Virus record (IMG/VR): IMGVR_UViG_3300003691_000025
Span: 1 to 39,268 of that record
From: a virus
Length of the DNA: 39,268 nucleotides
Direction: 5' to 3' (one strand)
Shown: positions 3,001-38,437 of the stretch, piece by piece
How the letters are laid out: every line of letters begins with the position of its first letter
How positions within the stretch are numbered: the first letter of the stretch is position 1
Program-made: the position numbers and the translations under genes
The notes under the pieces: generated by a model
What the model was told of the DNA's origin: nothing
The model's input: only the letters and a program-made list of their open reading frames with translations
The model's database searches: none

Positions 3001-3355
3001 CTTAGCAACAGTCGCCTCTATTGCTTTGCAATATGGAGTACCATTGAGTACCCTTGTAGATAAAATGATGCATCGTAAATTCGAACCTGCTGGTATTACG
3101 CGGAATAAGGACCTCCGATTCGCTGATAGTATCGTAGATTACGTATTCAGGTATCTTGGGTCGAAATTTTTGACCCCTGACGAACTAATTGATTTAGGCT
3201 TGATCAGTAAGTCGGACCAGTCTGCAGAAACTACTGGACAAATGGTCTCCAAACCATCAGATAGTCTTTGTCTAGTATGTGGTATGCCACTGAGAAGACT
3301 CGGTACCTGTGACACCTGCGTATCCTGTGGATACTCCGGCGGAGCTTGTTCCTAA
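83..3355 (+). CDS. nrdJ: Adenosylcobalamin-dependent (class II) ribonucleotide reductase with intein
   Basis: Reduces ribonucleotides to deoxyribonucleotides by a B12-generated thiyl radical, supplying dNTPs with or without oxygen. The ATG follows GAGGAG by 4 nt. The 1090-residue precursor minus a 262-residue intein (597-858) leaves an 828-residue enzyme, a normal size for NrdJ. Visible family signatures: SACF with redox Cys121, the NPCSEF loop (N324, C326 as radical cysteine, E328), SACNLS with the partner Cys337, APCGTMG at 500-506, and a C-terminal cysteine cluster (CLVCG...CDTCVSCG, about 1061-1084) typical of class II enzymes. The RSGG and RRSAKM stretches near 188-198 also fit NrdJ. It is convergent with the LamG gene, and the two stop codons overlap. 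No companion small subunit or activase is seen, as expected for class II. The family call is strong. Confidence 0.95.
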   Translation: MPYRSIRWKKTVAEIIGSDGKVLFSKDVTMPSDLSDQAISIIAEKYLCNSARPDTSLQQLFDRVSDTIAEQGMKQGYFDNTAEQKDFADWLKWIQVHRLAGFNSPVYFNVGLHDFPQSSACFINGLVDSMDGIAELGMREANIFKNGSGSGVDYSVLRSSKELVQLTGNASGPVSFLKVHDTFAGEIRSGGVVRRSAKMAVLDVSHPDIIPFIRVKQHEENKLRVLSAAGVQPYLSTTLSDEVSYQNTNLSVRMSGDFIKAACNGDMWPLIGQEGQVIEEVSASSLMDEIADNAWSSAEPGLHFRDNINKWNTVPHLGDIDASNPCSEFLFINDSACNLSALSLVNLFLQQPTCTFREEYNRDELIQKVIETMITAQDILVDYSKYPDEKIRRNSHRCRPLGLGFTDLGSYLMLIGMAYGSDEGRDEAGRLTSAISAEAHLASTMLAKRLGSYEDFNAEHHIDVVRMHRDAAKERGYPVDVWEQVIESGMLRNAQLTLLAPCGTMGYLLDNITTGIEPIFSHVSYKNLAGGGQLKLTNRYFPEALLNMGYAPNEDGSWDIKEKHKDIFACAGEIDWQDHIGMMAAVQPFLSGSISKCVCRSTICLTAEGMFRLGDLVGDMEPDTFTPVTVDVASIYGLDKADQFYYGGMKDTRRLELVDGRIIEGTPNHRVMVVVQDEISWKRLDEITQDDYVAIQIGQEMFGQTMLDAGTASYYGYALATGSIDQIPSDVLAATRADVFSFLQGFLLHSPNSDDCYIMPNDQVARDIMTILGNFGYLCQIEKDLLTIYGPSDMGIRTSLAPSKYHKHFLPVFEENILDNHRWFCIKVGSINRGRREVCDFQIPESHAFIGNSMINHNTVNMPESVTPDDIKQCYRESHELGLKSVIVYRDGSKTGQVLKTTSGEEDLEVEEVGHTSCERVPLNDERKGGTHKFTIAQTKGYLTWSEYEDGRIGEIFIRIAKEGSTLSGLIDALATVASIALQYGVPLSTLVDKMMHRKFEPAGITRNKDLRFADSIVDYVFRYLGSKFLTPDELIDLGLISKSDQSAETTGQMVSKPSDSLCLVCGMPLRRLGTCDTCVSCGYSGGACS
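1871..2656 (+). other. Intein (262 aa) in NrdJ with decayed LAGLIDADG region
   Basis: Class II reductases normally read ...GSISKTVNMPE... Here 262 residues lie between SISK and TVNMPE, giving exact boundaries. The insert starts with Cys597 (CVCRSTICLT, splicing block A), has block B GTPNH (T666, H669), block F-like CDFQIPESHAFIGN, and ends SMINHN (His857-Asn858) followed by Thr859 as the +1 nucleophile. All splicing residues are present, so autocatalytic excision is expected. The middle holds two LAGLIDADG-like helices (about YYGYALATGS, 714-723, and FLQGFLLHS, 742-750), but the acidic catalytic residue expected at the end of each is missing. The length lies between mini-inteins and full endonuclease inteins. 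I infer it still splices but no longer cuts DNA. Confidence 0.93.
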
Positions 3356-5649
3356 GCTAGTCCTTTGAGAGATGTGTCCTTGGCCCAGAGCCAAGGACAT
3401 GTTTTGAAAGATAACCTTCTGTCTAATGCTGGTTCGAACTGATAATCTTCGTCCGGTAGGCCGGTTAGAGCTATATATTTGTTAAGCTCTAACCGGTTTC
3501 CTGTTCTTTTGAACAAGTGGATCTTGATTGCCGACTCATCTATAAGTTGTACAAGTAAACCCTCTGTATGTAGACTTCTCCATATACCGAATAGTCTCGC
3601 TTCCTCATACAAGCTCCAATACCCGTCTTCTAGTCTGTAGATACTATTTTCTGTCTTTGATCCATAGAATAATGTCTGTATATCTGTCACTGCATCAGTG
3701 ATACCAAGTAGTACTGGATCTGGTAAGAGTACTCCTGGAGTCTGTGCTATAAGTACCTGATCCAGGTAGATATTACTTGCTTCAATATGTAGCCGCCCAA
3801 TGCTTTCCATCCTCTTGTTACCAGCTAAATATAGATCACCTACACAGTGGATCGCTCCTGTAGTTACGATCTTTATCTGTGGATTAACTGCTTCAACAAT
3901 ACCTTTACTTAATGGTCCGAAGTAGATGGATCTTATCTGGCATTCACAATCTGCATCGATCAGGGTTATGGATGCCGATCCTGTTTGTATAGTAGTAGAC
4001 AACGATGAACAAAGCAGGTCATTCACATATATACTGGTATCTGTTGCTGAACATTCTATTCTCACTGCTATATATTCAGTAGTCCACGGAAAATCTGGTT
4101 TTACTGCTGACTGGCCGAGATTTATTGTGGCGGTAGAGTCATCTATATCAAAGCCTATCGATCGTTGGCCTACTTTTATGAGGAATGATGCAGTATCAGC
4201 TACATCCAGTGACGTCTTTCGCAATACTACTATGAAAGATAGATTATCGCTATCTGATGAGCAATTACATTGCAGCTCTCCACCGATATCTATTATTCTA
4301 TTACTACCATTAGGATGAATACCTTGGCCTACTACATCAGATACTGTCCTCATATCTAACCCACTACCGATAAGATCATCAGCGGTCCAATCAGCATCGA
4401 ATGAGTCATTGATATGTATGAATATATTATCTTTTTCAGAAGCTCGGAGGATTACATCCATGTAATCTGCCTGTGTATTCATTATAAGATATCCAAGTTC
4501 TGTCCTATCCACAGACAAAGTGACATTGGATAACTCTGAAGTGGCAGCGACAATCCTATCCATCCGGATTAAAGTATCCCTTGTCGCTGATCCTCTATAT
4601 GCATATACTGCCTCTGATATGACATTACCTATATTCCAGATATTTTCTTCTTCTATATCCATACTGACTATAGTCATCTGACCCACAGATCTATACACCT
4701 CGCCTACAAAAGTATTAGACCGGAGGAGTTCTACCTGGGTAGTATCTAATGCCTTATCGTATAAAACAGGATTACCGACAGTCCCATCGAAATTGCCAGC
4801 ATATCCAGTGCCTAATGTGATTGAGCTACTACTGATGGTCGCAGGGTTATATAATGCCACTGATGATGCTGTTATTCGACGATCTATCATCCAGATAAGC
4901 TGTGAATTAGACAGGTCCCTGACTACAGCTATATGCGCCTCTTGACCTGATTGTATCGCTATTGCACTATTGAAACCCTGATACGGTGAACCATCTAAGC
5001 CAGAAGTTCCATAATAAAAATTTAATGTACCGTTAGTTTCTCTTGTGATAGAAAATTCACCACCATATGCCTTATGTAATATTGATGCTCGTACCCCTAG
5101 AGTATTAGGCCGGATCCACATAGCCAATGTCAGATCTCCTATTAACTGGAGTGATGGTGGGTTACCGATATCCAAATAACCACTTGCTACTGATATACCT
5201 GGACCCAGTGATAACTCTGCTGGTTCGGTAGAATAGCCGACCATGGATATACTCTTACCTGTCGATTCCATCAGATCGCCATCTTCGAAACCCCAATATG
5301 CCACTGGATTATATGGAGCTATCTGCTGGTCAGATGCATATATTCCACCAAGAACCAGACCTATATAGATCTCCCCTGACATGCCTTCTAGCAATGACCA
5401 TAATTCCTCTAGGTCGATAGAACTAGATGTCCTAACCGTATCCAATGATGGTTCGATTGACCACACACTGGCCCATATTATCTGATCGGCTATGAAGATA
5501 GCACTGGCAGCGATAATACGATTGACGTCAATCTTGAAATAGACAGCTTGTTCGCTACCTAAAGGATCGACCAGTCGCATACCGAATTCAGTGAATTCTA
5601 TCCCCGGGTCAGCAGTGAAGCCTACCGGGGATGAAAAATCGATTAACAC
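3352..5649 (-). CDS. LamG/concanavalin-like domain virion protein (probable tail or host-contact)
   Basis: A 765-residue protein. Residues about 115-315 read as a LamG (concanavalin A-like, jelly-roll) domain: VAYWGFEDGD at the start, SGYLDIGNPPSLQL, the central LTLAMWIRPN strand, HIAVVRDLS and FDGTVGNPVLYDKALD near the end. Such domains in phages usually sit in tail fibres or spikes and bind sugars. The remaining 450 residues are beta-rich, with no signal peptide or membrane segment. The start is GTG; its reading frame overlaps the upstream gene's stop by 7 nt, which suggests translational coupling in a three-gene minus-strand operon with the kelch-like protein. The domain is recognisable; virion location is inferred from domain type and neighbours. 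An adhesin that is not a fibre is also possible. Confidence 0.6.
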   Translation of the reverse strand: MLIDFSSPVGFTADPGIEFTEFGMRLVDPLGSEQAVYFKIDVNRIIAASAIFIADQIIWASVWSIEPSLDTVRTSSSIDLEELWSLLEGMSGEIYIGLVLGGIYASDQQIAPYNPVAYWGFEDGDLMESTGKSISMVGYSTEPAELSLGPGISVASGYLDIGNPPSLQLIGDLTLAMWIRPNTLGVRASILHKAYGGEFSITRETNGTLNFYYGTSGLDGSPYQGFNSAIAIQSGQEAHIAVVRDLSNSQLIWMIDRRITASSVALYNPATISSSSITLGTGYAGNFDGTVGNPVLYDKALDTTQVELLRSNTFVGEVYRSVGQMTIVSMDIEEENIWNIGNVISEAVYAYRGSATRDTLIRMDRIVAATSELSNVTLSVDRTELGYLIMNTQADYMDVILRASEKDNIFIHINDSFDADWTADDLIGSGLDMRTVSDVVGQGIHPNGSNRIIDIGGELQCNCSSDSDNLSFIVVLRKTSLDVADTASFLIKVGQRSIGFDIDDSTATINLGQSAVKPDFPWTTEYIAVRIECSATDTSIYVNDLLCSSLSTTIQTGSASITLIDADCECQIRSIYFGPLSKGIVEAVNPQIKIVTTGAIHCVGDLYLAGNKRMESIGRLHIEASNIYLDQVLIAQTPGVLLPDPVLLGITDAVTDIQTLFYGSKTENSIYRLEDGYWSLYEEARLFGIWRSLHTEGLLVQLIDESAIKIHLFKRTGNRLELNKYIALTGLPDEDYQFEPALDRRLSFKTCPWLWAKDTSLKGLA
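3375..3406 (+). terminator. Terminator-like hairpin after nrdJ
   Basis: TGTCCTTGGC (3375-3384) and GCCAAGGACA (3390-3399) form a perfect 10-bp stem with a 5-nt loop, followed by TGTTTT on the plus strand. It lies 20 nt past the nrdJ stop, inside the 3' end of the convergent LamG gene. The short T-run makes it a plausible but not strong intrinsic terminator. Confidence 0.55.
3461..3496. repeat. Perfect 12-bp inverted repeat inside coding sequence
   Basis: CCGGTTAGAGCT (3461-3472) and AGCTCTAACCGG (3485-3496) are exact reverse complements around a 12-nt loop. It lies within the 3' end of the minus-strand LamG gene, about 70 nt beyond the terminator-like hairpin at 3375. Read on the plus strand it is followed by only three T's. 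Confidence 0.85.
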
Positions 5650-6484: not shown

Positions 6485-9400
6485 TCACATTCCGATGAGC
6501 CTTAGGTGACAACTTGACCTAGCAGACTCAAATTTAAAACTTGTCTCCCCTTTTAGCGGCTCTGTGAGTTTTATAGTCACCAGCATCATATTACTGGTGA
6601 TTGGCACATTGCGTATCCCGTCTATCTCATATGATTCAGCACATGTCAAGAAAAATCTTTGATCCCCACTATTTGATACCCACATATCTGTGCCAGATAG
6701 TCTTATGACCAAACGGATGATTTGTATGCCTGATCCGGGTACGATCAAAACACCCTCATTGGCCGCCACACCCATATTACGATCTATCGAGTATATAAAA
6801 TCACTATTACCAAAACGGCCATTGATGAGATCCAAAATCCTGTCACTGTCTATTGTAGTCTCGCCTGATCTGACCAATTTGTTCCATATCTCGACAAGGT
6901 CACCTGATCCTATCTCACCAGATAATAAAGTAGCTAATCCTTCACCTGCGAATAGATCCCAATTGGCCGAGAATATAGCTGGTATATAGCACCGTCTAGA
7001 TGTGACGTGGCCACCGATATATAACTGACACATTCGGGCAGACCCATAGGTATTCCATGATGGCCGAGTTACTATTATATTCAGATCAGTTTTTAATTGA
7101 TCATATACTATATAGCAAGTTAGGTCCGAACTACCTGTATCTACCGCCGGTGTATGTATTGATCTATCAGTGTAATGATGCTCTACTGAATGGTGTATAT
7201 TTACTGGTATGGCAGTTGCTATAGTATCTGCACATATAGCTAATGCGTCTATTTTTTCTGTCCCATATGATGATAGTAAACAGATCAATTCAGAGTAGCC
7301 ACTATCATAAACTTCGTGAAGTAGACTTGGTCGATCAGTGAATGTGTAATCTCTGATGACTTCAGCAGTCAACCAGGTTCTATATGAACCCTGAGCGGCA
7401 CTGACCATAGCCGATCGATCTGATATAAGAGAGCTGAGCGGACTACAATAACTATATGGATACATTGACGATACATCAAAGAATATAGGTACTAGATCGA
7501 CCCCAGCAGTCAATATATCTGTGAATGCATCATATGTGTATATAGTCTTTGTTGGCTGTGCCCCATATACCTGCCCATGTACTACAGGATCCTCGATTCT
7601 GTCAGAGCACCCACCTATAAGTAGCCCATTGGACGATTGGGTGGTCATAGACTCTCCAAATCGGATAGGCCAATTACTTAGTTGACTGACTGATCCAGTA
7701 GTTGTATCTATAAAGACCCCATTGGATGTGACTATATTATCGTCTGACCTAGTTATAGCTTGATGTAGATCGGTCACTGTAGGTAATAAGCTCACCGATG
7801 ACGATAGTATGTCGGTAGAGCTGTCGATCAATTCTATCTCATCAGTCGGTGAATGTATAGAATTGATTGATCCACCAAGTATATATCCAATGCCGTTTAT
7901 GATCCTACTTGCCGCTGCCCTTGTTATATTCCTAACTGTAGATGTTGTGCCCACAGTCAATATGTAAGTGGTGATGTCCCAACTACGTACTTTATTTGTT
8001 ATTGGTAGGCCGTAACTACTAGAATCTGAATACTGGCAACCACCTACTAAAAAGTGCTTTTCTACACTACTGATCGGTATCGCTGACTCGCATAATTGGT
8101 CTGTATCGCCAGGTCTGATAGTAGTGGTCTCGTCAGCATAGTTGAGAGTCTCTATTTTACTAGCCGATCCACCAAGCATATATCCTGTCTGGCCGGTAGA
8201 CAAACCAGCAGCCCGACTACTTGGTGTGGCTGCTGCGACCTCAACTGGGTGTGATGAATTATGTTCAGATCTCCACACTGAGCCATCTGCTGCCTGGAAC
8301 CAACTACTTTCGAATGCTGACGTATATGAGCAACTCAGTGCCGCCGTGCATATACAGTCAACACTCCCATATAATCGTTCACCAACAAGTAGACGAGACA
8401 GGAGACTGGATCCAGCGGATGCTCCTATAGAACTGGCTATGGTGGTAGAGTTCTCTGTTCCAATAGCTGGTAAGTAAGACTTGATATTGATTGAAGCCAC
8501 ATCAGCAACAGTACTTCTACCCGCCATCCAATGATTATGTCGGTTATAATTCAAGCCAGGCAGATTGGTGTGTACTGACGTATACTGATCCACTATACCT
8601 ATTCGGTCAGTATTTATAAAACTTGCATTTGTACCGCCGGATATAAGATCCTGACCGCCGAGAGTATGCGATCTATATTGGTCTAAATTGGGTAAGTCGG
8701 ATATGACCACCTCTACACCAGTAGTATCACTATACGTGTACATATTGGATTTATTGAATATAATGATACTGGCATCATCAATTCCCGGACAGGTTGTCGT
8801 ATTAGACATACCTAACGGTAGAGAGGTTCGGGTTACAAAGCCAGTATCAGAAGTCGGGTTGAATGACCGAATCCAATTTCTATCTTGCACACCTACTTGA
8901 CCCCCAAATCCATATGCATCTCCGTATAAAAATTCAGCATCAAATCGGTTACGAGGCCAATCATCTGACCTATAGAGAGCAGCAGCGGTATCATTACTTT
9001 TATCCAGCCGATCCAATGTGCCCACTAGTCCATTCGGTGAAGCTCCACCCCAATACCAACCATATGTGGAGTTATTAGCTGATGCCATATAACTCCTATT
9101 TTGAGAAAGATCCGTACGATCACCAGTGACCACTGTATCTGTATCATATATGAGCAATTCTACTATATTCTGTATATCATGACCACCAGCAATCCATGCC
9201 ATATCAGATGATGTGACTGTTGCTGATCCCATCCTTGGTAGAAATGTTGTGCCCCTAGTATATGCAACTAAAGTAGAGGCATCCATTCGCTCAATAGATG
9301 CGACATTTAGGCCACCCCCTATCCAAACCGAATCTGGGTTGGCTGATGATAAATGTACAGATGTATTGGATGACAGGGTGTATACACTGCGATCGGTCAT

Positions 9401-11527
9401 TGGATCCATGGCCACAACTAGTGAATTCAATTCAATCCATGTGCGTAGTGCTATTTTTACTGGCCTATCATTAAAATATGGATCAGCACAATCGAGTGAG
9501 CAGGGTATAGAATTACTGTATTCTACTGGTTCAAATACTAGCCCAATAGAGGTATCTGTATGAACTGTTAAGGCCGGTTGTTTGATCTGGACAGATGTGT
9601 CAGATACGCCTCTCAGTCCATGTATTCCAATAACCACATCACTAACTGCTGCAGTGGTCAACGCACAATGGATTATATGACCATTCATTACACCATAGTC
9701 TACGGGTGCTCCGGTGGCCAATGAATGTCTTGTAGCTGTAGATAGCCTGGGCGTAGTCTCCACTGTCCCACTAGTTCCATCAAACTTATCAACCTCGGAT
9801 AAAGCTGCCGATCTGTAGCCGCAGAATACCCAAGAATATTCTGAATTAGAAAAAGCGACTGTGCGACTTCTAGCAGTGCTTAATACTCCACGCCATTCAA
9901 CCTGTGAATGATCAGATAGATGATACACACTTTCTATCTCAGCAATCTGTGATATCTTAGTGCCGCCTAGTATCAGGCTGGTATCATGTACTGATGTACT
10001 GCTAGCTGCGAATTTTGGTGATGATAGATTACTGGAAGGCGAGATCAATACCTCTGTGTCCATGTCCAAAACGTCGATACGGTTGGTCGGTGTACCATTA
10101 TCCACACCGCCAGCGAATACTCCTCTCCCATTTAGTCCCGACCCAGCTATGAAGATTTCTTGACCAGATCCCGCTAAGGCCGTCCATGTTTCAGTTGATA
10201 AATCAAATGATGCCATATTACTGGCCCATTTGATATACCCGTCTGAATCCGAGTATGCAGAACCAGCATATGCGAAAGCCGATGTACCAGTACTAGTTAC
10301 GACAGAAGATGTATCTGATGCATGGTCTAATCTCTCATTAATACCTGTTTCTACGTGGTTCGAATCAAATCCACCAATGAACCAAGTATTACCCAATGTA
10401 CTAAAAGATGTGAGACCATACCTAGGTGTCAAAGAACCATTGATTATTGTCTCGAAATCCGTATTAAGGTCGACTTTAATAATATCGCCATAGATACTGG
10501 CATAATTCTGCCCCCCTCCTAAATACAAAATGTTGGATAAAATGAGCTCACTGCTTCCACATCGATAGCTTATTAGACAATTTAGATCAGGAGAGCTTTC
10601 AGATATTATGGCGGAAGCATACACTACTAGATCATCGAGTCCTATTGAATTGATCAGTGTAGTCCTGTCACCTGACACTATTGGATATTGTCTGGCCGTA
10701 ATCAGATCGCATCTATAAGAAGCATCTGTGGTGTCTGTATAAAAATCTGTTCTATCTACAACAGACGATACAGACAGATTCAATCCTGCTACCCACCAGG
10801 ATTTTAAAGGAGTATTTATACCTTGCAGATCCTGTCTGGCCAAGCTGAGATAACTACGTGACCCTGAGTTGGCTGTGTCTACAGATACATCTATCTTATG
10901 GATTGTCATAGCTAATCCATCATTATCTACTCCACCGGCTACATAGGCATCACCACCACGTCCAGTTGAACCATGACGGGTACGACCATCAATGATATAT
11001 AGTGTACCTAGTAGGGACCATATATAAGTGGATACGTCCATCTTCTGTGTATGTGATAAGATAGACCCTGTAGTATCAGTCCCTCCAAATCCCCATAAAT
11101 TAAGACCATCTGTATATCCATGCGATGCTATACTTCGAACGGGCGAGGATCCTATATTAGATAGTATCTCAGTGGAATCATCAAACTCGGATACCGTATT
11201 GGTCTGCGAATCTCCGAGGAGATAACCGTACTCGCCTACACTAAAGGATGAACCATGTGACTGTATATATGCGGATTGGCCCTGGTCGCTGACTGCATTT
11301 GTGTATGTAGAATGATCAAGTCTTTCTATAGCATCAGACCCGCCACCTACTAACCAAGTATAAGAGGCATTACTGATACCGAAGCCCCCGATCCTAATCA
11401 ATGAAGAGGCAGAGGCTAAAGTGACAGAAGTGTCGTTAGATGGATCTATGTGCTCTACGGACCCATGTGTACCTGAAATAATAAATATATCAGGTGGATC
11501 TATCGTACGATAAGTTTGCTCAGCCAA
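6485..11527 (-). CDS. Giant kelch-like repeat protein (probable tail or adhesin)
   Basis: This 1680-residue protein is the largest in the window. It repeats a kelch-like pattern: a hydrophobic strand into Gly-Gly (WLVGGGSD, YVAGGVDN, WFIGGFDS, AWIAGGHD, WYWGGASP, YMLGGSAS, YILGGSIN, LLIGGCSD), then a strand ending in a 'phi-D-x-S/T-T' turn (ERLDHSTYT, ERMDAST, DRLDKSND). Units fall into four blocks at roughly 20-290, 330-610, 715-1010 and 1090-1350, consistent with four beta-propellers. Between and after them lie cysteine-containing beta segments with a recurring 'DLxCxI' look (SPDLNCLIS, YSELICLL, SSDLTCYIV). No signal peptide is seen. The start is uncertain: TTG at 11527 is used; the open frame runs upstream to a TAA with no ATG and no good ribosome site. 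Size, repeats and position first in the operon suggest a tail or receptor-binding component, but this is inference. Confidence 0.7.
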   Translation of the reverse strand: MAEQTYRTIDPPDIFIISGTHGSVEHIDPSNDTSVTLASASSLIRIGGFGISNASYTWLVGGGSDAIERLDHSTYTNAVSDQGQSAYIQSHGSSFSVGEYGYLLGDSQTNTVSEFDDSTEILSNIGSSPVRSIASHGYTDGLNLWGFGGTDTTGSILSHTQKMDVSTYIWSLLGTLYIIDGRTRHGSTGRGGDAYVAGGVDNDGLAMTIHKIDVSVDTANSGSRSYLSLARQDLQGINTPLKSWWVAGLNLSVSSVVDRTDFYTDTTDASYRCDLITARQYPIVSGDRTTLINSIGLDDLVVYASAIISESSPDLNCLISYRCGSSELILSNILYLGGGQNYASIYGDIIKVDLNTDFETIINGSLTPRYGLTSFSTLGNTWFIGGFDSNHVETGINERLDHASDTSSVVTSTGTSAFAYAGSAYSDSDGYIKWASNMASFDLSTETWTALAGSGQEIFIAGSGLNGRGVFAGGVDNGTPTNRIDVLDMDTEVLISPSSNLSSPKFAASSTSVHDTSLILGGTKISQIAEIESVYHLSDHSQVEWRGVLSTARSRTVAFSNSEYSWVFCGYRSAALSEVDKFDGTSGTVETTPRLSTATRHSLATGAPVDYGVMNGHIIHCALTTAAVSDVVIGIHGLRGVSDTSVQIKQPALTVHTDTSIGLVFEPVEYSNSIPCSLDCADPYFNDRPVKIALRTWIELNSLVVAMDPMTDRSVYTLSSNTSVHLSSANPDSVWIGGGLNVASIERMDASTLVAYTRGTTFLPRMGSATVTSSDMAWIAGGHDIQNIVELLIYDTDTVVTGDRTDLSQNRSYMASANNSTYGWYWGGASPNGLVGTLDRLDKSNDTAAALYRSDDWPRNRFDAEFLYGDAYGFGGQVGVQDRNWIRSFNPTSDTGFVTRTSLPLGMSNTTTCPGIDDASIIIFNKSNMYTYSDTTGVEVVISDLPNLDQYRSHTLGGQDLISGGTNASFINTDRIGIVDQYTSVHTNLPGLNYNRHNHWMAGRSTVADVASINIKSYLPAIGTENSTTIASSIGASAGSSLLSRLLVGERLYGSVDCICTAALSCSYTSAFESSWFQAADGSVWRSEHNSSHPVEVAAATPSSRAAGLSTGQTGYMLGGSASKIETLNYADETTTIRPGDTDQLCESAIPISSVEKHFLVGGCQYSDSSSYGLPITNKVRSWDITTYILTVGTTSTVRNITRAAASRIINGIGYILGGSINSIHSPTDEIELIDSSTDILSSSVSLLPTVTDLHQAITRSDDNIVTSNGVFIDTTTGSVSQLSNWPIRFGESMTTQSSNGLLIGGCSDRIEDPVVHGQVYGAQPTKTIYTYDAFTDILTAGVDLVPIFFDVSSMYPYSYCSPLSSLISDRSAMVSAAQGSYRTWLTAEVIRDYTFTDRPSLLHEVYDSGYSELICLLSSYGTEKIDALAICADTIATAIPVNIHHSVEHHYTDRSIHTPAVDTGSSDLTCYIVYDQLKTDLNIIVTRPSWNTYGSARMCQLYIGGHVTSRRCYIPAIFSANWDLFAGEGLATLLSGEIGSGDLVEIWNKLVRSGETTIDSDRILDLINGRFGNSDFIYSIDRNMGVAANEGVLIVPGSGIQIIRLVIRLSGTDMWVSNSGDQRFFLTCAESYEIDGIRNVPITSNMMLVTIKLTEPLKGETSFKFESARSSCHLRLIGM

Positions 11528-14799: not shown

Positions 14800-16281
14800 A
14801 TGAGTATTAAAAATTTAGCAGAGTTTCTCACCCATGTGAAGGAATCTGCCCGAAATAACAGTGCCACTACTACCTACTCTTTTGACCTTAATGATGTCAC
14901 TACTCGGCAATATGTCAGTGGTCTACTCACTCGGATCGAAGAGTCTACCGGCTCGGATAGATCGAAACTATTCCAGCTTAATCTCGGTGATATATGTACT
15001 GCTTTGGCATCTAGTACATTTCCGAATGTCAGTGAAAGTACCGATGAACTGCCTGGTGATCAAGAAGCCATTCTAGTCGCAGCTAAAGAGGTTGTCGATA
15101 ATTCCACCGGTGTACATCAGCTGTTGTCTACAACTGGTGATGCCGATCTTTTGGACGCCAAACTGACAGAAACTACAGAAGAAGTCGAAACTACTGCTGA
15201 AGTCGAAACTACTGCTGAAGTCGAAACTACAGAAGAAGTCGAAACTACAGAAGAAGTCGAAACTACAGAAGAAGTCAAAACTGTAGAAGAATCTGCCTTT
15301 ACTATCTCAGATGAGCTAGATACCACACCCTGGGCCGATGTAGATACTGCTGGAATAAAAGGTCGATTGAAAGCAGCAAAAGAGTCAGGTGCTGCTGGAA
15401 TTGATGATGTCATTAATGAAGTATATGGCTCTGCCGACACTGAAGATCCTAGTACATGGAGTTACCCACATCATACTGTGTCTGAATCTGGCTCTGTCCA
15501 TGTTAATGTAGAAGGTCTGGCCTTAGCATCGGCTCAGATAGCATCTCGTTTTCGTGGAACTGCCGACTCTATGATATCTGCTGCTGGTCGAATGCAGGAT
15601 CATTTCACCGATCAGATGACTAACTCGACTATCACATCGGTTTCAGAGGCTAGGACAGGGGTCCACATGCTATCACTGGAAGTGGTAGACGAAGATGGTC
15701 TTGTACATAGTCTGGATAATGCTACAGATATGGCTGATCAGCTATGCGTAGCTGAGTCGGCTGTTAATCTGCTGCGTGACTCTGGTCTACTGGGCCTGAA
15801 TGAGCCAACAACGTTACAAATCGATGTTGATCAGCTGAAAGCCGTGCAGACTAATCTTACGAACATGTCAGATATTGTTCTCGGTAAGGCTGACCTTGAT
15901 ACTGTAGAAGAGTCTGCCGGTGACCCACTGGTCTCAGATGCTGAACTTGATGATCTGAGAAAACAGCTCCGATTAGCTGAGCAAAAAGTAGATGCCCTAC
16001 AATCACTGCTAGAGGGATCTGCGCTACAAGGTGTCGCTGAAAGTGTAGCCGGTGCTAAGGACCCACTTACAGTATCAGCATTCAAAGATGTGTCCCAATC
16101 CATCGGGATTAAGAAATTGATCACGGCAAGAAGAAAACCAGCAAGCGCTGATCTCGATATGGTACGCGAGGGCGCAAGTTTGGATGATTTAGATAACCTT
16201 ATCACAGACGATCACGAGACAGCTGTTTCAGAGAGTGCTGGCCCTAAAAGAAAGGCCAAAACTCTAGCTGTATACGTATAA
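14800..16281 (+). CDS. Scaffold / prohead core protein (T4 gp22-like position)
   Basis: A 493-residue, strongly acidic, largely helical protein between protease and capsid genes, the place of the T4 core protein gp22. The ATG follows GGAGG by 12 nt. Residues about 126-165 are an acidic run of six EVETT(A/E)-type repeats. A short motif, V or I-x-E-S with A, G, T or V after it, recurs at residues 13, 46, 77, 162, 227, 317, 369, 412 and 476, with related sites at 281 and 455. Such regular spacing fits a protein meant to be cut into small peptides by the protease next door. The extreme C-terminus turns basic (GPKRKAKTL), which could anchor it to the shell or portal. No sequence family was recognised, so the role rests on position, composition and motif spacing. 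Confidence 0.72.
   Translation: MSIKNLAEFLTHVKESARNNSATTTYSFDLNDVTTRQYVSGLLTRIEESTGSDRSKLFQLNLGDICTALASSTFPNVSESTDELPGDQEAILVAAKEVVDNSTGVHQLLSTTGDADLLDAKLTETTEEVETTAEVETTAEVETTEEVETTEEVETTEEVKTVEESAFTISDELDTTPWADVDTAGIKGRLKAAKESGAAGIDDVINEVYGSADTEDPSTWSYPHHTVSESGSVHVNVEGLALASAQIASRFRGTADSMISAAGRMQDHFTDQMTNSTITSVSEARTGVHMLSLEVVDEDGLVHSLDNATDMADQLCVAESAVNLLRDSGLLGLNEPTTLQIDVDQLKAVQTNLTNMSDIVLGKADLDTVEESAGDPLVSDAELDDLRKQLRLAEQKVDALQSLLEGSALQGVAESVAGAKDPLTVSAFKDVSQSIGIKKLITARRKPASADLDMVREGASLDDLDNLITDDHETAVSESAGPKRKAKTLAVYV
15181..15288 (+). repeat. Six tandem 18-bp repeats coding an acidic linker
   Basis: Units begin at 15181, 15199, 15217, 15235, 15253 and 15271. Each is close to GAAGTCGAAACTACAGAA. 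The first two end ACTGCT, the next three ACAGAA, and the last has changed to GAAGTCAAAACTGTAGAA. A partial unit precedes them. They encode EVETT plus A or E. Nearly identical neighbouring copies suggest recent slippage growth. Confidence 0.93.
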
Positions 16282-17436: not shown

Positions 17437-17443
17437 ACCGGCG

Positions 17444-17460
17444 TCAAAACACTGTTTTGA
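17444..17460. repeat. Small perfect hairpin after capsid gene
   Basis: TCAAAAC (17444-17450) and GTTTTGA (17454-17460) pair perfectly around ACT, 8 nt after the capsid stop and directly before the stronger terminator hairpin. Confidence 0.7.
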
Positions 17461-17464
17461 ATCC

Positions 17465-17496
17465 TACCGGGGGCTAATAAGTCCCTGGTATTTTTA
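17465..17496 (+). terminator. Intrinsic terminator after major capsid gene
   Basis: TACCGGGGGC (17465-17474) pairs with GTCCCTGGTA (17481-17490), including G-U pairs, around TAATAA, and is followed by five T's. This matches a rho-independent terminator and would separate late capsid mRNA from the replication genes. Confidence 0.8.
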
Positions 17497-17625
17497 TGCC
17501 TTCTGTCATATATATGTATTCGATGTCCCTGCTCTATCTAATACCACCACTATCGTTGATGTGTTGTATAGTTTTCTATCTTTAAAAAATTAGCATCTAC
17601 ATAACTCAAAGAGGTGGTACACCGT

Positions 17626-17880
17626 ATGGTACATCGTACAGCACATAAAGTAACTAATGGTCGGGCTATACTGGATCGTAAAATAGAAGAAGTCGCATCC
17701 AAGGCCTGGTGTGGGAAGATCAGTCGTATCCGTCGACGGATTATAGGTATCAAATTTCTCTTCGATGTTATTGTAAATATGGCAAGGGGTAACATTGATA
17801 GTAGTCCAGATGAATTCGACTATATGATCGACGAGTTAATGAAAGTCAAGGACGGTAGCTATAATGCCGACGCCAGCTAA
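17626..17880 (+). CDS. Small basic unknown protein, 84 aa
   Basis: No family recognised. I choose ATG 17626 because AGAGGTGG ends 8-9 nt upstream; an in-frame GTG at 17614 lies inside that ribosome site. The N-terminal half is very basic (RTAHK, SRIRRRIIGIKF) and the C-terminal third acidic (PDEFDYMIDELM). It could bind nucleic acid through its basic half, but no known fold is visible. It follows the capsid terminator and probably opens the next transcription unit with the 90-aa gene and topoisomerase. The 189-nt gap upstream likely holds its promoter; nothing in it is convincing enough to mark. Confidence 0.6.
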   Translation: MVHRTAHKVTNGRAILDRKIEEVASKAWCGKISRIRRRIIGIKFLFDVIVNMARGNIDSSPDEFDYMIDELMKVKDGSYNADAS

Positions 17881-17893
17881 GTCTGATTAACCT

Positions 17894-18166
17894 ATGCTGA
17901 CTGTCGTATTCGATAACGGTCTACCCGATCTGTCCGTACTACATCGGGTATATCTGATTTCTGTGAGAGATAACACACATATATTTCAGAAGAACCGATC
18001 AGGTAAAAGGCCTCAGATATATAGGTCCGTAGCATCTGATAAAATATGGGATCTCATAGATATGGAAGTAGACCCACCAGAGAGAACGGATTTACGTTAT
18101 AAATTATCGACAGCCATATTAGCATTTATGTACTCAATCTATACAGGGATAACAAATGCCAGGTGA
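17894..18166 (+). CDS. Small unknown protein, 90 aa
   Basis: No family recognised. It begins 13 nt after the previous gene and overlaps the topoisomerase start by 11 nt, so its translation is probably coupled to the downstream subunit. The N-terminus looks like two beta-strands (MLTVVFDNG, HRVYLISVRDN), then a basic patch (KNRSGKRPQ), then a helix ending in a hydrophobic stretch (STAILAFMYSIY). The hydrophobic run is short for a membrane segment. No ribosome site is obvious. The conserved-looking overlap and intact frame support a real gene. Confidence 0.55.
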   Translation: MLTVVFDNGLPDLSVLHRVYLISVRDNTHIFQKNRSGKRPQIYRSVASDKIWDLIDMEVDPPERTDLRYKLSTAILAFMYSIYTGITNAR

Positions 18167-19955
18167 TATTAAGAAACTGACTGCAAGGGAACATATAATG
18201 TCCTACCCGGATGCCTATCTGGGCAGTACGCAAAAAAGTGAGGTACCCCAAATAGGGTATGATGCCGCTGGAAAAATTGTTAATGTAACCAATCATATAC
18301 CAGCAGCAATAAGAGCGGTCAAAGAGATATTGGACAATTCAGCGGATGCAGCTATCCGAGCTGGCCTAGAAAAAGGCCTCCGATTGGATTGCTCCTTCAC
18401 TGATGATGGGTTCACTGTGACTGATGATGGCCATGGTATACCAATCAAGATGTCAGCTGAACAGGGTGTATATATGCCCCAATTAGCTCTCGGTGAAAAT
18501 AGAGCTGGCTCCAATTTTGAAGTGGATACCCGATCTACCATCGGTATGTATGGTGTGGGTGCCTATTGCACAAATGTTGTATCTACCAAGCTATTACTAA
18601 AAACTGATGACGGCATAAAGTCGTATAAGCAGGAATTCTCTGAAAACTGTGGTAAAGTTGGTAAACCCACATTAGGTAAGACAAAAAAATCTGGTACATC
18701 CGTCAGTGTTGTTCTGGATCAGAATTTGGTCCAGTGGACTGATGAGTCCATATGGTGTTGCCTGCATCTATTAAACAATACCATGTTTGTATATCCGTCA
18801 ATCAAGATAACAGCAAAAGTACATGGTAAAACTGTCAAACTTTTAAAGGGCGACGGATATCATAAGGCCTTAGGTATAGAAGATGAGTGGTTTTCTGTAG
18901 ATACAGGATCTTTCCGAGCTATCTTTGGGCTATTCAATGGTAGATCTGACGTAAAAGGCCTAGTAAACGGTACAGACTGCAGTGGTATACACATATCCAC
19001 GATTAAATCAGCCATCTCGAGTCATTTAATAGATTCATTAAAGACCGATCTATCACCTGATGTGACCAGAGGAGATATCAGTAGATGCATATCTATGGTA
19101 GCATCTTTCCGAGTTGTAGATCCGAGTTTTGACAGTCTGACGAAGACCTCACTTGTAGGTTGTGATAAGGACAGACTAAACGCTGACATAGGTGATGCCC
19201 TTGAGCGAATAAAGAACGGTCTGTACCATTCTAGTCAGTTCAAAGAAGCTGTTATGACCCTTGTTGAAAGTAGGGGTGGTAACAAGATCAAGCAGGCCGA
19301 AAAAAAGGCTGCTCGACGTCGGAAGTCAACTAAATTGGTAGACGTATACCGAAGCTCCCGAGCTGATAAACGACCTACCTATCTACTAGTGACAGAAGGG
19401 GACTCGGCGAAGGGGTTATTCCTACAGGCTAGAGATCCTGGTCTGCATGCTATTTATCCACTCCGCGGTAAAATAATGAACGCCATCTCGGCCAGCAGTA
19501 CTAAGAAAGTAGTTAACAATCAAGTATTGTTTGAACTAGCTTCTATTCTGGGCCTGAGTATAACAGATCCAGATATAAGTAACTGCAGATACACATATCT
19601 AGTGAGTCTAACGGATGCTGACGCAGATGGTGATAATATATGTGGTCTATTATATGGCTTTATATTCCGTTACTGGCCTGATCTTTTTAAAGCTGGCCGA
19701 GTTTTGAGATTACAAACACCGTCTCATGTGGGTGTAAGCGGGAAGGAACGGAAGCATTTCTATGGATCACCCCCTGATGATTTTCAAGGTAGACTTGAAT
19801 ATATAAAAGGATTGGCTTCTTTGACTTTACCAGATGTCAAAGAAATATTGGCCAAACCGCATTTCGAAACTATGGTATTGGATGATGGAGCACCAGATCT
19901 GATCCAAGTAGTACTTGGTGAAAGTTCAGACGCTAAACGAAGATGGCTAAGCTGA
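18156..19955 (+). CDS. DNA topoisomerase II ATPase/toprim subunit (GyrB/ParE, T4 gp39-like)
   Basis: Uses ATP to drive strand passage together with the cleavage subunit at 28907. Domains: a GHKL ATPase with VKEILDNSADAA (E57 general base, N61), TDDGHGIP (89-96) and GMYGVGAYCTN (130-140); a transducer region; then toprim with LVTEGDSAKG (E414), PLRGKI (435-440) and LTDADADGD (D487, D489, D491). At 599 residues it is the size of the single-chain large subunit of T-even-like phages and shorter than bacterial GyrB. GGGAT is 6-8 nt upstream of the ATG. The stop lies inside a long hairpin preceding the polymerase gene. The partner subunit lies almost 9 kb away, with polymerase and four unknown genes between. 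Confidence 0.93.
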   Translation: MPGDIKKLTAREHIMSYPDAYLGSTQKSEVPQIGYDAAGKIVNVTNHIPAAIRAVKEILDNSADAAIRAGLEKGLRLDCSFTDDGFTVTDDGHGIPIKMSAEQGVYMPQLALGENRAGSNFEVDTRSTIGMYGVGAYCTNVVSTKLLLKTDDGIKSYKQEFSENCGKVGKPTLGKTKKSGTSVSVVLDQNLVQWTDESIWCCLHLLNNTMFVYPSIKITAKVHGKTVKLLKGDGYHKALGIEDEWFSVDTGSFRAIFGLFNGRSDVKGLVNGTDCSGIHISTIKSAISSHLIDSLKTDLSPDVTRGDISRCISMVASFRVVDPSFDSLTKTSLVGCDKDRLNADIGDALERIKNGLYHSSQFKEAVMTLVESRGGNKIKQAEKKAARRRKSTKLVDVYRSSRADKRPTYLLVTEGDSAKGLFLQARDPGLHAIYPLRGKIMNAISASSTKKVVNNQVLFELASILGLSITDPDISNCRYTYLVSLTDADADGDNICGLLYGFIFRYWPDLFKAGRVLRLQTPSHVGVSGKERKHFYGSPPDDFQGRLEYIKGLASLTLPDVKEILAKPHFETMVLDDGAPDLIQVVLGESSDAKRRWLS

Positions 19956-20010
19956 TTAGACCGACTATTTTTTAGTCAGCTTAGCCTTTCCTACTCAAGC
20001 TGACTAAAAA
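19945..20010 (+). promoter_or_regulatory. Two mutually exclusive hairpins before the DNA polymerase gene
   Basis: Arm 1 GGCTAAGCTGATTA (19945-19958) pairs with arm 2 TAGTCAGCTTAGCC (19973-19986) over 14 bp with one G-U. The overlapping arm TTTTTAGTCAGCTT (19969-19982) also pairs perfectly over 14 bp with AAGCTGACTAAAAA (19997-20010). Both cannot form at once. A small third option is GACTA/TAGTC (19963-19977). Arm 1 contains the topoisomerase stop. The second hairpin ends 20 nt before the polymerase ATG, which has no Shine-Dalgarno. T4 and RB69 polymerases repress their own translation by binding an mRNA hairpin at this place, so a translational operator or attenuator is likely. Confidence 0.75.
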
Positions 20011-20030
20011 TACTCGATTTAACCAGACTT

Positions 20031-22997
20031 ATGGAAGATGAATTCAAGAAGTTTCATGACCGGCGATATCACGATAGCTACTGGCATCCCAAGACTAATA
20101 AGCTCACCATTTGGAGTTATGATAGGAAAGGTACTTTACATAAAGATTCCATAATACAAAAGCCGTATATATACATAGAATCTCCAGAGGCAGGTATGGA
20201 GAACCGAACTACAATGTCCGGTTCTCCTGTGAAGAGATACAGTTTTGGTGATAAATATGCACTCAACAAAGCAATAAAGACAGCAAATCCCGCCGAACGA
20301 AGAATGATTCATGAGAATGGATTTGTGCCTGCAGAGATGGGCCTGATCGCCGATATATTCCCTCATGAAGCAGACTTCGACCCCGCAGTCAAGATCCTAT
20401 GTTTTGATATAGAAGTATATTCAGAAACTGGATTTCCCCTTCCTGAAGAAGCCCGTTGGCCTGTTACTTCCATTGCTGTATGCAGAGAATGGGAAGATGA
20501 TAAAATCGTAGTTTATGGGTGTAAGCCACTAGATCTGGATCAAATAAGTAAATTACCAGACAATGCTGAATTCGTATACTGCCAGAATGAGGCTCTATTA
20601 CTCCTCGGCTTTCTCATAGAGGTGGAGCGGGCAGACATGCTAACTGGCTGGAATAGTAATCAATTCGATATACCATATCTATTCCATCGGATGAAAAGAC
20701 TCGCTCTGTCTATGAAGCCTGGTGAACTCAAGACTGCTATGCAAATCGGTTTCAATTCAGTGACTGTAGATAAAGCTGCTTACATCTATAAGTCATATGA
20801 TAATAATGAGAAACGCGATAAATGGCATCCACGCATACCTGGTAAAGGCTTAGTAGATCTATTAGACCTTTATAAGAAATATGCCTTCATAAAGTTACCC
20901 AGTTATTCATTGGATAATGTTGGTAAGTTTGAGTTCGGAGATGGTAAACTCAAACAGTATGATAATGGCGGATCAAAGGAATTGAGTTTATCCAGTATGT
21001 TTCTACATCACTGGAATGTGTATGTGGCCTACAATATACGAGATGTCGTCCTTACTCGCGATATCAATCGTAAGAGAGCCCTAACTGATCTTGCTATTGA
21101 GATCAATGGTATTTCTAAGATACCACTTGATCGGGTGACTTATATGAGCGCTATTATTGATGGTGCCCTCCTCGGGTTTATGCGCCCCCGCGGTATGGTT
21201 TCACTAGGTAGACATGAGCCCGAAAAGGTGGCATTCAAAGGTGGCTTTGTGAAGGCGCCAATAGATGTCTACAATAATGGGCGACGACTTTACAAGCATG
21301 CATGTTGCTTTGATGTAACTTCTGAATATCCATCAGTAGTTGTCAGGCTTAATGTATCTCTAGAGACTTATGTTGGTCGAATCAAATTACCTCAATTTGA
21401 AGAACTAAAAGAAGTAGCACTTGTGAGGAACGCTGATGATCTATTACCCGGTGATGATGACCTGGTACTGATCGAAGTGTATGGAGGTGATGATTTCGTA
21501 CAGAGTGCTAAGGAGATAAGGCAGAAGTGGGCTGACGGAATATGGGGCGTGTCGTGTGATGGCGTAATTTTTGACCTTAGGACTGAGGGGGTATTCTCAG
21601 CATTTACAGAGGATGGATTCTCTAAGAGAAAGGGATTCAAACGGGAATATCAGATGTATAGAGATCGCTATGAGGATACTCATGACGAAAAAGATAAAGT
21701 AGCCAGGGATAAATTCTACACCAAGCAGATAGGTCGGAAACTTATACTCAACTCTGGCTATGGACAGACAGGATCACGTTTTTCTCGCTTATACAATCCA
21801 CATATAGCTCAGGCCATCACATCGACTGGTCAGTCTATCGTATTTAATGGCGAACGATTTATAAATGAATGGTTCACTATGCATTATAAGGATCATTCAG
21901 ATGATATTTTATCCTTCGTACAGGAGTACCACCCACAGATAGAAAAAATACCATTCTGGGATGATACAATCGAAGATCGAGTAGTGACAATGGATACAGA
22001 CTCGGTCATCTATACTGTAGATGATCTCACTAGAAGACTATACGCAGAAGAGGGAAAAGCGGATTTCAACAGTGAAGATGGCGGTGATTCCGTCAGATCT
22101 ATATTATTTCTGAATGCCTTTATGATACGATTCATAGAGCCGGCTCTGAATGAATATCTTAATGAAGATTTTGCTAAGAACAGACTGAAATCTAATAGGG
22201 CTTTCCAACTAGGCTTTGAATTAGAGGGTGAAAAAACTTCAGCTGGTAGCATATTCTTGAAGAAGAAAAAATACATACATCAAATACCCAAACATAATGA
22301 TGATGGTACCTGGTCACTAGCACTGAAGGTAACAGGGTATGAGATGAAGAAAGTAAACACACCTCCAGCTATAGCTAAAGGCTTAGAGAAATTTGTGCAC
22401 TTTATGTTCGAAGATGCGCATAATTGGCTCACTGAAGAAGTCACATTCATACATGCTGTCAATAGAGCCGTTCATCTGATGACAGAATTGACAGACACCG
22501 ATGATGAACAAGAGATCATGCATAGACTGGCAAACTCCACCTCAGTCAATGGGATAGAGAAATATACTCCGGATGAATCAGAGGGCGCATTATTCAAAAA
22601 AGGTAGTCCCATCCATGTAAAGGGTGCACTATTGCATAATTTTCTTGTAGAGCAGTTAAACCTAGATATAGCCCCTATATATTCAGGAGAGAGATGTATG
22701 GTGCTCCGGATAAAAGAGGAACTACCTAAAGCCACTGCTATTGCATATAAGGAGCAATTTCCACCAGAATTTATAGGACTAGTTCAACCTGATGTATATA
22801 GTGTGGCAAAGACTCATTTTCTGAATAAGTGCTCTAGTCTGTTCGACGCATTTTCTTATGAGAAGGCTTGGACTAATCTACTGGCAAAGTTATATAAGAG
22901 AGATCAGGATTGGCCTATACACGGTGAGTTAAGTACTGAGACCTTAGCACAACTTAAGCCACTGACAACAAGGCAAGTCATCCCGATAAACAAATGA
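20031..22997 (+). CDS. Family B replicative DNA polymerase with 3'-5' exonuclease (T4 gp43-like)
   Basis: Copies the phage genome with proofreading. In 988 residues: Exo I CFDIEVY (D126, E128), Exo II NSNQFDIPY (D213), Exo III YNIRD (Y334, D338), motif A FDVTSEYPSVV (D428), motif B KLILNSGYG (K570, N574, Y577, G578), motif C TMDTDSV (D655, D657), and a KKKKYIH motif of the thumb-palm. The complete active sites suggest an active enzyme. Odd: motif A reads S-E-Y-P-S where the family nearly always has S-L-Y-P-S. The C-terminal 200 residues fit a thumb. No ribosome site precedes the ATG; instead a pair of alternative hairpins does, implying controlled translation. The next gene starts 13 nt after it. 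Confidence 0.95.
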   Translation: MEDEFKKFHDRRYHDSYWHPKTNKLTIWSYDRKGTLHKDSIIQKPYIYIESPEAGMENRTTMSGSPVKRYSFGDKYALNKAIKTANPAERRMIHENGFVPAEMGLIADIFPHEADFDPAVKILCFDIEVYSETGFPLPEEARWPVTSIAVCREWEDDKIVVYGCKPLDLDQISKLPDNAEFVYCQNEALLLLGFLIEVERADMLTGWNSNQFDIPYLFHRMKRLALSMKPGELKTAMQIGFNSVTVDKAAYIYKSYDNNEKRDKWHPRIPGKGLVDLLDLYKKYAFIKLPSYSLDNVGKFEFGDGKLKQYDNGGSKELSLSSMFLHHWNVYVAYNIRDVVLTRDINRKRALTDLAIEINGISKIPLDRVTYMSAIIDGALLGFMRPRGMVSLGRHEPEKVAFKGGFVKAPIDVYNNGRRLYKHACCFDVTSEYPSVVVRLNVSLETYVGRIKLPQFEELKEVALVRNADDLLPGDDDLVLIEVYGGDDFVQSAKEIRQKWADGIWGVSCDGVIFDLRTEGVFSAFTEDGFSKRKGFKREYQMYRDRYEDTHDEKDKVARDKFYTKQIGRKLILNSGYGQTGSRFSRLYNPHIAQAITSTGQSIVFNGERFINEWFTMHYKDHSDDILSFVQEYHPQIEKIPFWDDTIEDRVVTMDTDSVIYTVDDLTRRLYAEEGKADFNSEDGGDSVRSILFLNAFMIRFIEPALNEYLNEDFAKNRLKSNRAFQLGFELEGEKTSAGSIFLKKKKYIHQIPKHNDDGTWSLALKVTGYEMKKVNTPPAIAKGLEKFVHFMFEDAHNWLTEEVTFIHAVNRAVHLMTELTDTDDEQEIMHRLANSTSVNGIEKYTPDESEGALFKKGSPIHVKGALLHNFLVEQLNLDIAPIYSGERCMVLRIKEELPKATAIAYKEQFPPEFIGLVQPDVYSVAKTHFLNKCSSLFDAFSYEKAWTNLLAKLYKRDQDWPIHGELSTETLAQLKPLTTRQVIPINK
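20198..20227. repeat. Perfect 9-bp inverted repeat in the polymerase gene
   Basis: GGAGAACCG (20198-20206) and CGGTTCTCC (20219-20227) pair around a 12-nt loop near the 5' end of the polymerase coding sequence. Confidence 0.8.
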
Positions 22998-33014: not shown

Positions 33015-33353
33015 ATGCGGAAATCTGTCTTGTATCTAGCCTGTAGAGCAATATCTGATACTATAGAGGACATACAGGAGGGTGATCGGGATGAGGTGCA
33101 CCATTTACTTATAAATACTGTAGGATCCCTGATTGATCAACTAGCTAATTCAGCATACTACAATACTCTTACAGCACATATGAATTCTATCTGGTCAAAT
33201 GGGCATGTTAGATTCACAACTCAAATGCAACTCGGCTCGACTGATCTTACCCTATCTGTGTTCGGTTATGACATAACAGGGTCGTTTGTCCGGATGTACC
33301 ATTATCCGGAGGACCAATATTTAGATATGCTCTACCAATCTATGCTGGCTTAA
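33015..33353 (+). CDS. Unknown 112-aa protein
   Basis: No family recognised. It starts 3 nt after the Rad50-like stop, so it belongs to the recombination operon and ends it: a convergent hairpin terminator follows 7 nt later. The N-terminal half is helical and acidic (AISDTIEDIQEGDRDEVHHLL), the second half beta-like (VRFTTQMQLGSTDLTLSVFGYD). Its opening (LACRAISD) weakly resembles that of the 139-aa protein at 34104 (LLAHAISD), so the two might be distant paralogues. Length and layout are similar, but the match is too short to rely on. Confidence 0.6.
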   Translation: MRKSVLYLACRAISDTIEDIQEGDRDEVHHLLINTVGSLIDQLANSAYYNTLTAHMNSIWSNGHVRFTTQMQLGSTDLTLSVFGYDITGSFVRMYHYPEDQYLDMLYQSMLA

Positions 33354-33359
33354 AAAGCT

Positions 33360-33389
33360 GTCCGGTGCTCCTTTGATCGAGCACCGGAC
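33360..33389. terminator. Bidirectional hairpin between convergent genes
   Basis: GTCCGGTGCTC (33360-33370) pairs perfectly with GAGCACCGGAC (33379-33389) around CTTTGATC. It lies in the 42-nt gap between the stops of the 112-aa gene and the resolvase-like gene. There is no long T-run on the plus strand and only AGCTTTTTAA on the minus-strand side, so it would terminate better in the minus direction. Confidence 0.7.
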
Positions 33390-33395
33390 ACACCG

Positions 33396-33947
33396 TTACA
33401 GCTCAGCTACTCCTTTGATCGAGCTTTCTCTCTCACACATCAGGTCAAAGAATTTATCCAGGTCCATCACGACTACATAGGTATCCTCATATTTCAGTTT
33501 CAAATACCAATCAGTTCCACCAACTCTCGCCGTGTCTATATACTTCTCAAGAAACCAATTCTTCGCCGCATATTCAATTAGTTGGAGGCCAGATTCACTG
33601 AATAATCGATTAAAGACCTCTATATCGAAGCAGACAGCAGGCTTAAATCTATTTTTCTTGAAGAGCACAATCCATTGAGTATGCTCCAATATATTGGTCG
33701 AAGCCTGTCGTATCCATGATTTCAGATTGAATGACTCATCGGCCTTACACTCACATGACCATGGAAATTCTATACGAGCTGGTCCAATCAATACTATGTC
33801 TACCGATGTACCACCCATAATCCTTGACTGTATACACTCATCCTTGCCATAGGGCATATTAAGTAGAGCGGATACACGTGCTGCCACATACTTCTGAAAC
33901 CTAGCACCCTTATTCTTTGCACTCCGGGTAGTTATTCTCTTTGCCAT
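33396..33947 (-). CDS. PD-(D/E)XK nuclease, Holliday-junction-resolvase-like
   Basis: A 183-residue probable endonuclease. The N-terminus KNKGARFQKYVAARV (11-25) resembles motif I of archaeal Hjc-like and related resolvases, followed by MGGTSVDIVLIG with Asp50 and SCECKADE with Glu66-x-Lys68, the D...ExK catalytic core, then a helix with QAS (81-83). The motif I acidic residue is Gln18 here. Such a nuclease would cut branched DNA before packaging, the job of endonuclease VII in T4, or degrade host DNA. It is alone on the minus strand with its own upstream region. GGAG lies about 13 nt before the ATG. The fold is likely; junction specificity is inferred. Confidence 0.72.
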   Translation of the reverse strand: MAKRITTRSAKNKGARFQKYVAARVSALLNMPYGKDECIQSRIMGGTSVDIVLIGPARIEFPWSCECKADESFNLKSWIRQASTNILEHTQWIVLFKKNRFKPAVCFDIEVFNRLFSESGLQLIEYAAKNWFLEKYIDTARVGGTDWYLKLKYEDTYVVVMDLDKFFDLMCERESSIKGVAEL

Positions 33948-36962: not shown

Positions 36963-37490
36963 ATGTGGAAAAAACAATTATTAACCTTCCTTATACTGAC
37001 AGCAGCAGTTATATTAAAGCAGACCTCAATGCTTGCAGCCAGCACTGGTAGCTGGCTGCAAGCTCTCACAGAAGCAGTAAGTACGACAGGTCCATTCTCG
37101 TATGATGCTCTCGGTCTCACAACTCATGTAGTCCTCATATTCGGTGCAAGTGGAATACTGGTCGGTATACTGGATCGAAACCTAGAGCTATTCATCCATA
37201 CAAGCGTACTCGCATCATTGCTCCTAGTAGCCTTAGTAGCCGATAGGGAATTTACTTACAACCAGAATGGACCTAATTCCCTCAATGCCATCTCAGTAGG
37301 CTATAAAGAGGGCTTTACCTTTGGTAAAAAGATCATCACCAAAATAGGAACAGATCAATACACGTTAATCAGAACAGAAGGACTTGAGAGGACCTTCGGT
37401 ATAAAGAGTTGTACAGAGATGACAGATCCAGCAGTATGTGAGGCTTGGTCTACTGGTTTCCATGTAGCAATAAGGGGTATTACTCAATGA
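36963..37490 (+). CDS. Exported membrane protein, 175 aa, vaguely VirB2/TrbC-like
   Basis: The N-terminus MWKKQLLTFLILTAAVILKQTSMLAAS looks like a signal peptide with cleavage near LAA-S (residues 24-27). Two hydrophobic segments follow, about 50-70 (ALGLTTHVVLIFGASGILVGIL) and 76-93 (ELFIHTSVLASLLLVALV), separated by the short loop DRNLE. Signal peptide plus two close helices is the layout of VirB2/TrbC-type pilins, but the length is greater and an extra soluble 80-residue C-terminal domain (two cysteines, CTEMTDPAVC) is not typical. I treat the likeness as topological only. It is coupled to the DHH gene by a 4-nt overlap. A 13-bp hairpin lies over the signal-peptide junction. Confidence 0.55.
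   Translation: MWKKQLLTFLILTAAVILKQTSMLAASTGSWLQALTEAVSTTGPFSYDALGLTTHVVLIFGASGILVGILDRNLELFIHTSVLASLLLVALVADREFTYNQNGPNSLNAISVGYKEGFTFGKKIITKIGTDQYTLIRTEGLERTFGIKSCTEMTDPAVCEAWSTGFHVAIRGITQ
37031..37063. repeat. Perfect 13-bp hairpin in coding sequence
   Basis: GCTTGCAGCCAGC (37031-37043), 7-nt loop, GCTGGCTGCAAGC (37051-37063). It is GC-rich and therefore very stable. It encodes the region just around the predicted signal-peptide cleavage site and has no T-run after it. Confidence 0.92.
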
Positions 37491-38398: not shown

Positions 38399-38409
38399 CG
38401 TCCATAGTG

Positions 38410-38437
38410 TATGGCCTGCCGTCAATGGCAGGCCATA
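38410..38437. terminator. Bidirectional hairpin between convergent genes
   Basis: TATGGCCTGCC (38410-38420) and GGCAGGCCATA (38427-38437) form a perfect 11-bp stem with a 6-nt loop, in the 53-nt gap between the DHH gene and the minus-strand 100-aa gene. There is no long T-run on either side, so termination may need a factor. Confidence 0.7.

Follow-up and report, generated by a model that had tools for sequence, protein, structure and literature searches.

In bacteriophage T4, both inhibitory and enhancing RNA structures are found at translation starts (PMC3014915). The gp43 operators of T4 and RB69 are hairpins of 18 and 16 nt, respectively, that carry a UAAC loop and overlap the ribosome binding site, and some T4-related polymerases are known not to autoregulate (PMC3014915). 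In the T4 genes e, soc, 49, and I-TevI, the start region is sequestered on long transcripts by a single inhibitory helix, which in gene e is relieved by a nearer promoter. The split translation initiation regions of the T4 genes 25 and 38 contain an intercistronic hairpin just 5' of the start codon that brings a distant Shine-Dalgarno (SD) sequence near the AUG. Finally, the start region of lambda cIII adopts alternative RNA conformations, one of which inhibits translation, and the balance between them is shifted by RNase III bound to the 5' leader (PMC2777011).

The junction described here is located between the genes for a topoisomerase subunit and a DNA polymerase in a 39-kb virus record from a very divergent phage of the T4 lineage. 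The whole stretch analyzed, 39,268 nt in length, is referred to as the window. Relevant coordinates are provided in Table 1. The topoisomerase large subunit shows 31% amino acid sequence identity to those of Klebsiella T4-like phages, and the polymerase is ∼25% identical to known phage polymerases.

Table 1. Coordinates of the junction elements and of selected genes in the window.
Feature	Position	Strand	Description
Terminase	12125		
Gp23-type capsid	16300		
DNA topoisomerase II large subunit	18156–19955	+	599 aa; PHROG 543, E 3.5e-118; stop TGA 19953–19955
Arm A	19945–19960	+	Pairs with B (upstream hairpin) or D (long hairpin); holds topoisomerase stop codon
Imperfect inverted repeat	19948–20031	.	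84 nt; arms 19948–19982 and 19997–20031, 14-nt center
Arm B	19969–19986	+	Central arm common to both hairpins; partner is A or C
Arm C	19997–20010	+	Perfect pairing with B (downstream hairpin); weak pairing with D in the tandem-hairpin state
Arm D	20011–20031	+	Outer 3' arm; pairs with 19948–19968; extends to the first base of the polymerase start codon
Family B DNA polymerase	20031–22997	+	988 aa; Pfam DNA_pol_B and exo1; PHROG 262, E 4e-121
Topoisomerase second subunit	28907		
SbcD/SbcC-like proteins	30218, 31170		

Several other features of the window deserve mention. An intein is embedded in the large subunit of ribonucleotide reductase (83–3355), with the Intein_splicing match covering residues 641–858 of 1090. 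The minus strand encodes a 1680-aa protein with Kelch repeats (6485–11527) that adjoins a 765-aa Laminin_G-like lectin protein (3352–5649); a role as an adhesin or fiber is possible for these neighbors. A tandem repeat whose unit of 18 nt is divisible by three is present in 6.8 copies at 15169–15291 within the 493-aa gene preceding the capsid gene. The long gap 3' of the capsid gene (17437–17893) contains a clear terminator (17465–17490) and an 88-aa open reading frame (17614–17880). In the noncoding right end, the 31-nt sequence CCCCTCCGTATGGGCATTTTTTACTCGTATA is repeated exactly in direct orientation (38941–38971 and 39044–39074), for which the chance expectation is none, and a perfect 17-nt tandem repeat, TAATAATAAATATTAAG, runs off the end of the record in 4.4 copies (39195–39268).

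Two alternative hairpins built on one shared central arm had been reported at the junction in an earlier note, and both are present at the positions given there. The upstream stem, A-B, is formed by 19945–19960 and 19971–19986 and contains 16 pairs, including two G·U pairs, closed by a 10-nt loop (-22.0 kcal/mol). The downstream stem, B-C, is formed by 19969–19982 and 19997–20010 and contains 14 Watson-Crick pairs around a 14-nt loop (-16.1 kcal/mol); it ends 20 nt before the polymerase ATG at 20031, as had been stated. The pairing of the central arm was described as perfect in both directions. This holds for the downstream stem, whereas the upstream stem is perfect only if G·U pairs are counted, and its inner 14-nt repeat is 93% complementary. 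The arrangement exceeds chance. Four Watson-Crick stems of at least 13 pairs were observed versus a mean of 0.017 per shuffled window, and in none of 60 whole-window dinucleotide shuffles did long stems share an arm. No match to Rfam was obtained in the window at the gathering score. The same stem was found elsewhere in IMG/VR in 10 matches, all with other loops and contexts, which is approximately the estimated chance level.

The two stems are sub-parts of the 84-nt inverted repeat, with B-C forming the tip of a long hairpin. The repeat fills the intergenic span, starting two codons short of the topoisomerase stop and ending at the first base of the polymerase ATG. Its alignment score of 36 is the best in the 39-kb window, whereas the highest value among 20 shuffled windows was 27. 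The outer arm 19948–19968 matches the reverse complement of 20011–20031 with p = 0.002 by shuffling; judged by energy with the tail shuffled, the outer helix is only marginal (p 0.083). An alternative reading of the region is as a direct repeat, in which two copies of a single hairpin unit, since diverged, lie at a spacing of 48 (p 0.018); on this reading, the choice offered to the shared arm follows naturally from the duplication. It could thus be argued that the junction is the by-product of a duplicated and diverged palindrome without a regulatory role. The perfect 14-bp core and the nearly perfect A-B stem, however, lie in a fast-evolving gap and suggest upkeep, although quasi-palindrome correction could do likewise, and we consider a mere by-product very unlikely.

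The plus-strand RNA of the repeat folds at -28.1 kcal/mol with a z-score of -4.65 (-4.7 for the leader). The minus-strand RNA folds better still, at -37.5 kcal/mol with a z-score of -7.1 (range, -6.6 to -7.9), and by z-score it ranks first among the listed 96-nt stretches of the window (z -7.9, or -6.6 with 500 shuffles). Such a difference would also be expected of a DNA-level palindrome or of an antisense RNA. The repeat might serve as an operator or as a palindrome used in replication or recombination, in which a protein would recognize three or four TTAGTCAGCTT-like sites in double-stranded DNA. The palindrome is strong whichever strand is considered, and its exact core motif occurs only here in the window, but there are no further clustered copies in the window, no sigma-70-type promoter is listed at the junction, and there is no turn in GC skew at the site. 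An origin of replication likewise receives no support from the skew, the window being a fragment. On balance, a DNA-level element is quite unlikely.

The polymerase gene is preceded by no SD sequence, in keeping with the earlier note: none of the tetramers GGAG, GAGG, AGGA, AAGG, or GGGA is present in 19901–20030, and pairing of the start region with the anti-SD amounts to +0.3 kcal/mol. Since several other genes in the window also lack an SD, its absence at the polymerase is not special. A split initiation site of the type seen in T4 genes 25 and 38, with which the junction shares an intercistronic hairpin just 5' of a start codon, is excluded because there is no SD in 19901–20030 to be brought near the AUG. 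The topoisomerase and polymerase genes are in the same frame, and the only stops between them are TGA codons (19953 and 20001). A fusion protein produced by TGA recoding was rejected because TGA ends 10 of the 28 genes, that of the polymerase included.

The junction had been likened to the gp43 operators, and the parallel is that a T4-type family B polymerase gene has a hairpin in its leader, in a phage of the T4 lineage. The features that can be compared in the sequence do not bear out the analogy. The stems here measure 14–16 bp, and the loops, CCGACUAUUU and AGCCUUUCCUACUC, contain neither UAAC nor the UAAA of RB49; UAAC is found only at 20020 in arm D and UAAA at 20005 in arm C. No SD is present, and the outer helix reaches the ATG in only one of the two predicted folds (state 2, below). 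Given also the low sequence identity of the polymerase and the T4-related polymerases that do not autoregulate, it is extremely unlikely that the enzyme binds the hairpin to repress its own translation.

Two states are predicted for the RNA. In state 1, there are two tandem hairpins, a strong A-B and a weak C-D, and in state 2 there is one long hairpin in which the B-C tip is extended by an A-D outer helix over the polymerase start region. The two are near-isoenergetic, at -47.3 versus -48.3 kcal/mol for 19900–20090 and -25.7 versus -28.1 kcal/mol for 19945–20034; these are model values with an error of a few kcal/mol, and the minimum state depends on the stretch folded. When a growing transcript is folded, A-B is preferred until ∼20030, after which the long hairpin becomes the predicted minimum. 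In state 2, bases 20018–20030 are mostly paired, with unpaired probabilities near 0.05 at most positions. The earlier note had the upstream form sequester the topoisomerase stop codon. The TGA does lie within arm A, but it is paired in both full-length folds. When 19938–19968 is masked, as by the footprint of a ribosome on the topoisomerase stop, the upstream stem is no longer predicted, the downstream stem is the only one to remain, and the polymerase start region becomes approximately half open. The folding calculations thus lend support to the notion, also put forward in that note, of a two-state fold that could be biased by a ribosome located on the topoisomerase stop.

On the basis of the predicted folds, the opening of the start region under a ribosome, and the absence of an SD, a translation-coupling element is favored. 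Specifically, we tentatively propose, at somewhat less than even confidence, that the junction is a cis-acting intercistronic RNA element that sets access to the polymerase start and is coupled to translation of the topoisomerase. Action at the RNA level, an effect on translation, and the direction of that effect are inferred. The element would sit on the plus-strand message, where A-B would form first during transcription and the long hairpin, once ∼20029 had been transcribed, would cover the polymerase start region. A ribosome finishing the topoisomerase at 19955 would mask arm A, such that A-B would be lost together with the A-D helix over the start, and B-C alone would be left. The SD-less start would thereby open, the path from stop to start would shorten from 75 to about 33 nt, and polymerase translation would therefore be low on its own and coupled to that of the topoisomerase. 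Weak support comes from the last Ser codon of the topoisomerase, inside arm A, which is AGC (5% of Ser usage). A more ambitious version, namely a bistable switch read by the ribosome, in which termination on the topoisomerase gene would choose between the closing long hairpin and the opening short one and thus keep polymerase output in step, is doubtful.

The early formation of A-B in the nascent chain also fits a hairpin marking a transcript boundary, either a 3' end or a weak, leaky terminator for the topoisomerase gene with B-C as the antiterminator when ribosomes cover arm A. This remains the main rival because many gene ends in the window carry stable hairpins (3369, 17465, 33359, 35424, 37031, and 38399) and terminators just before the polymerase gene are often found in distant relatives (four cases). 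The tail score of A-B, 2.76, is within the top 1% of random tails. This tail, TTTCCTAC, is nevertheless weak when compared to those of the two clear terminators in the window (4.15 and 3.69), and by a d'Aubenton-Carafa rule A-B scores approximately -16 versus +23 and +15. A-B is absent from the terminator scan, where its loop would in any case exceed the limit of 8, and B-C has no U-tract (tail score 1.35). With its poor tail, the junction is not a canonical intrinsic terminator, that is, a GC-rich hairpin followed by a U-rich tract. A transcript boundary in the broader sense carries a low but appreciable probability.

Gene-end hairpins elsewhere in the window are of some interest in themselves. 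Between two convergent genes at 33329–33424 there is a very stable hairpin with a 12-bp perfect stem (33359–33390) and a T-tract on the minus-strand side only. The strong gene-end hairpins at 37031–37063 and 38399–38451 have a U-tract on neither strand. The latter two suggest that gene-end hairpins in this phage may terminate transcription in a non-canonical way or protect 3' ends.

The long hairpin, with more than 30 imperfect pairs, could alternatively be cut by RNase III or a similar endonuclease, which would separate the two messages and free the polymerase start. Its long, imperfect intergenic helix resembles the RNase III targets of rplL-rpoB and rpsO-pnp (PMC2777011), and it is predicted on the plus strand. 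The first structure to form, however, is expected to be A-B with just 16 pairs, and processing is regarded as unlikely.

No homologous topoisomerase-polymerase junction was found in the phage, viral, and genome collections, from which records very near the window may be absent. A blastn search of phages with 4.8 kb gave no match, scans of IMG/VR with polymerase, topoisomerase, and capsid peptides gave no relatives, and clade-specific motif patterns and genome contigs likewise yielded no homologous junction. The best match in a polymerase profile scan showed 27% identity. In 129 distant relatives, the leader of the polymerase gene is only a little more structured than those of other genes (mean z of -0.92 versus -0.53).

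Returning to the translation-coupling element, the start region is predicted to be sequestered in a helix as in the T4 genes e, soc, 49, and I-TevI. Whereas a single helix is inhibitory in those genes and that of gene e is relieved by a nearer promoter, here two folds compete, and the junction has no late promoter motif (no exact TATAAATA); this T4 late promoter sequence occurs in seven copies in the window, which is not above chance. A single copy of CTAAAAATAC is present, and its variants are weak and scattered. The nearest analogue in behavior would appear to be the start region of lambda cIII. In both cases there are alternative folds at the start of a phage gene, two of them near-isoenergetic and one covering the start, albeit here by prediction only. 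In lambda, RNase III acts on a 5' leader, whereas the present element lies across the boundary of two genes, with the ribosome on the upstream gene as the proposed factor.

If the switch works in this manner, it would provide a protein-free tie between the dosages of two replication proteins. It would also constitute an SD-independent initiation site in a phage of the T4 lineage, in which the polymerase is classically under protein autoregulation. If true, this would point to divergent T4-like lineages having reinvented the control of the phage replicative polymerase through its leader.
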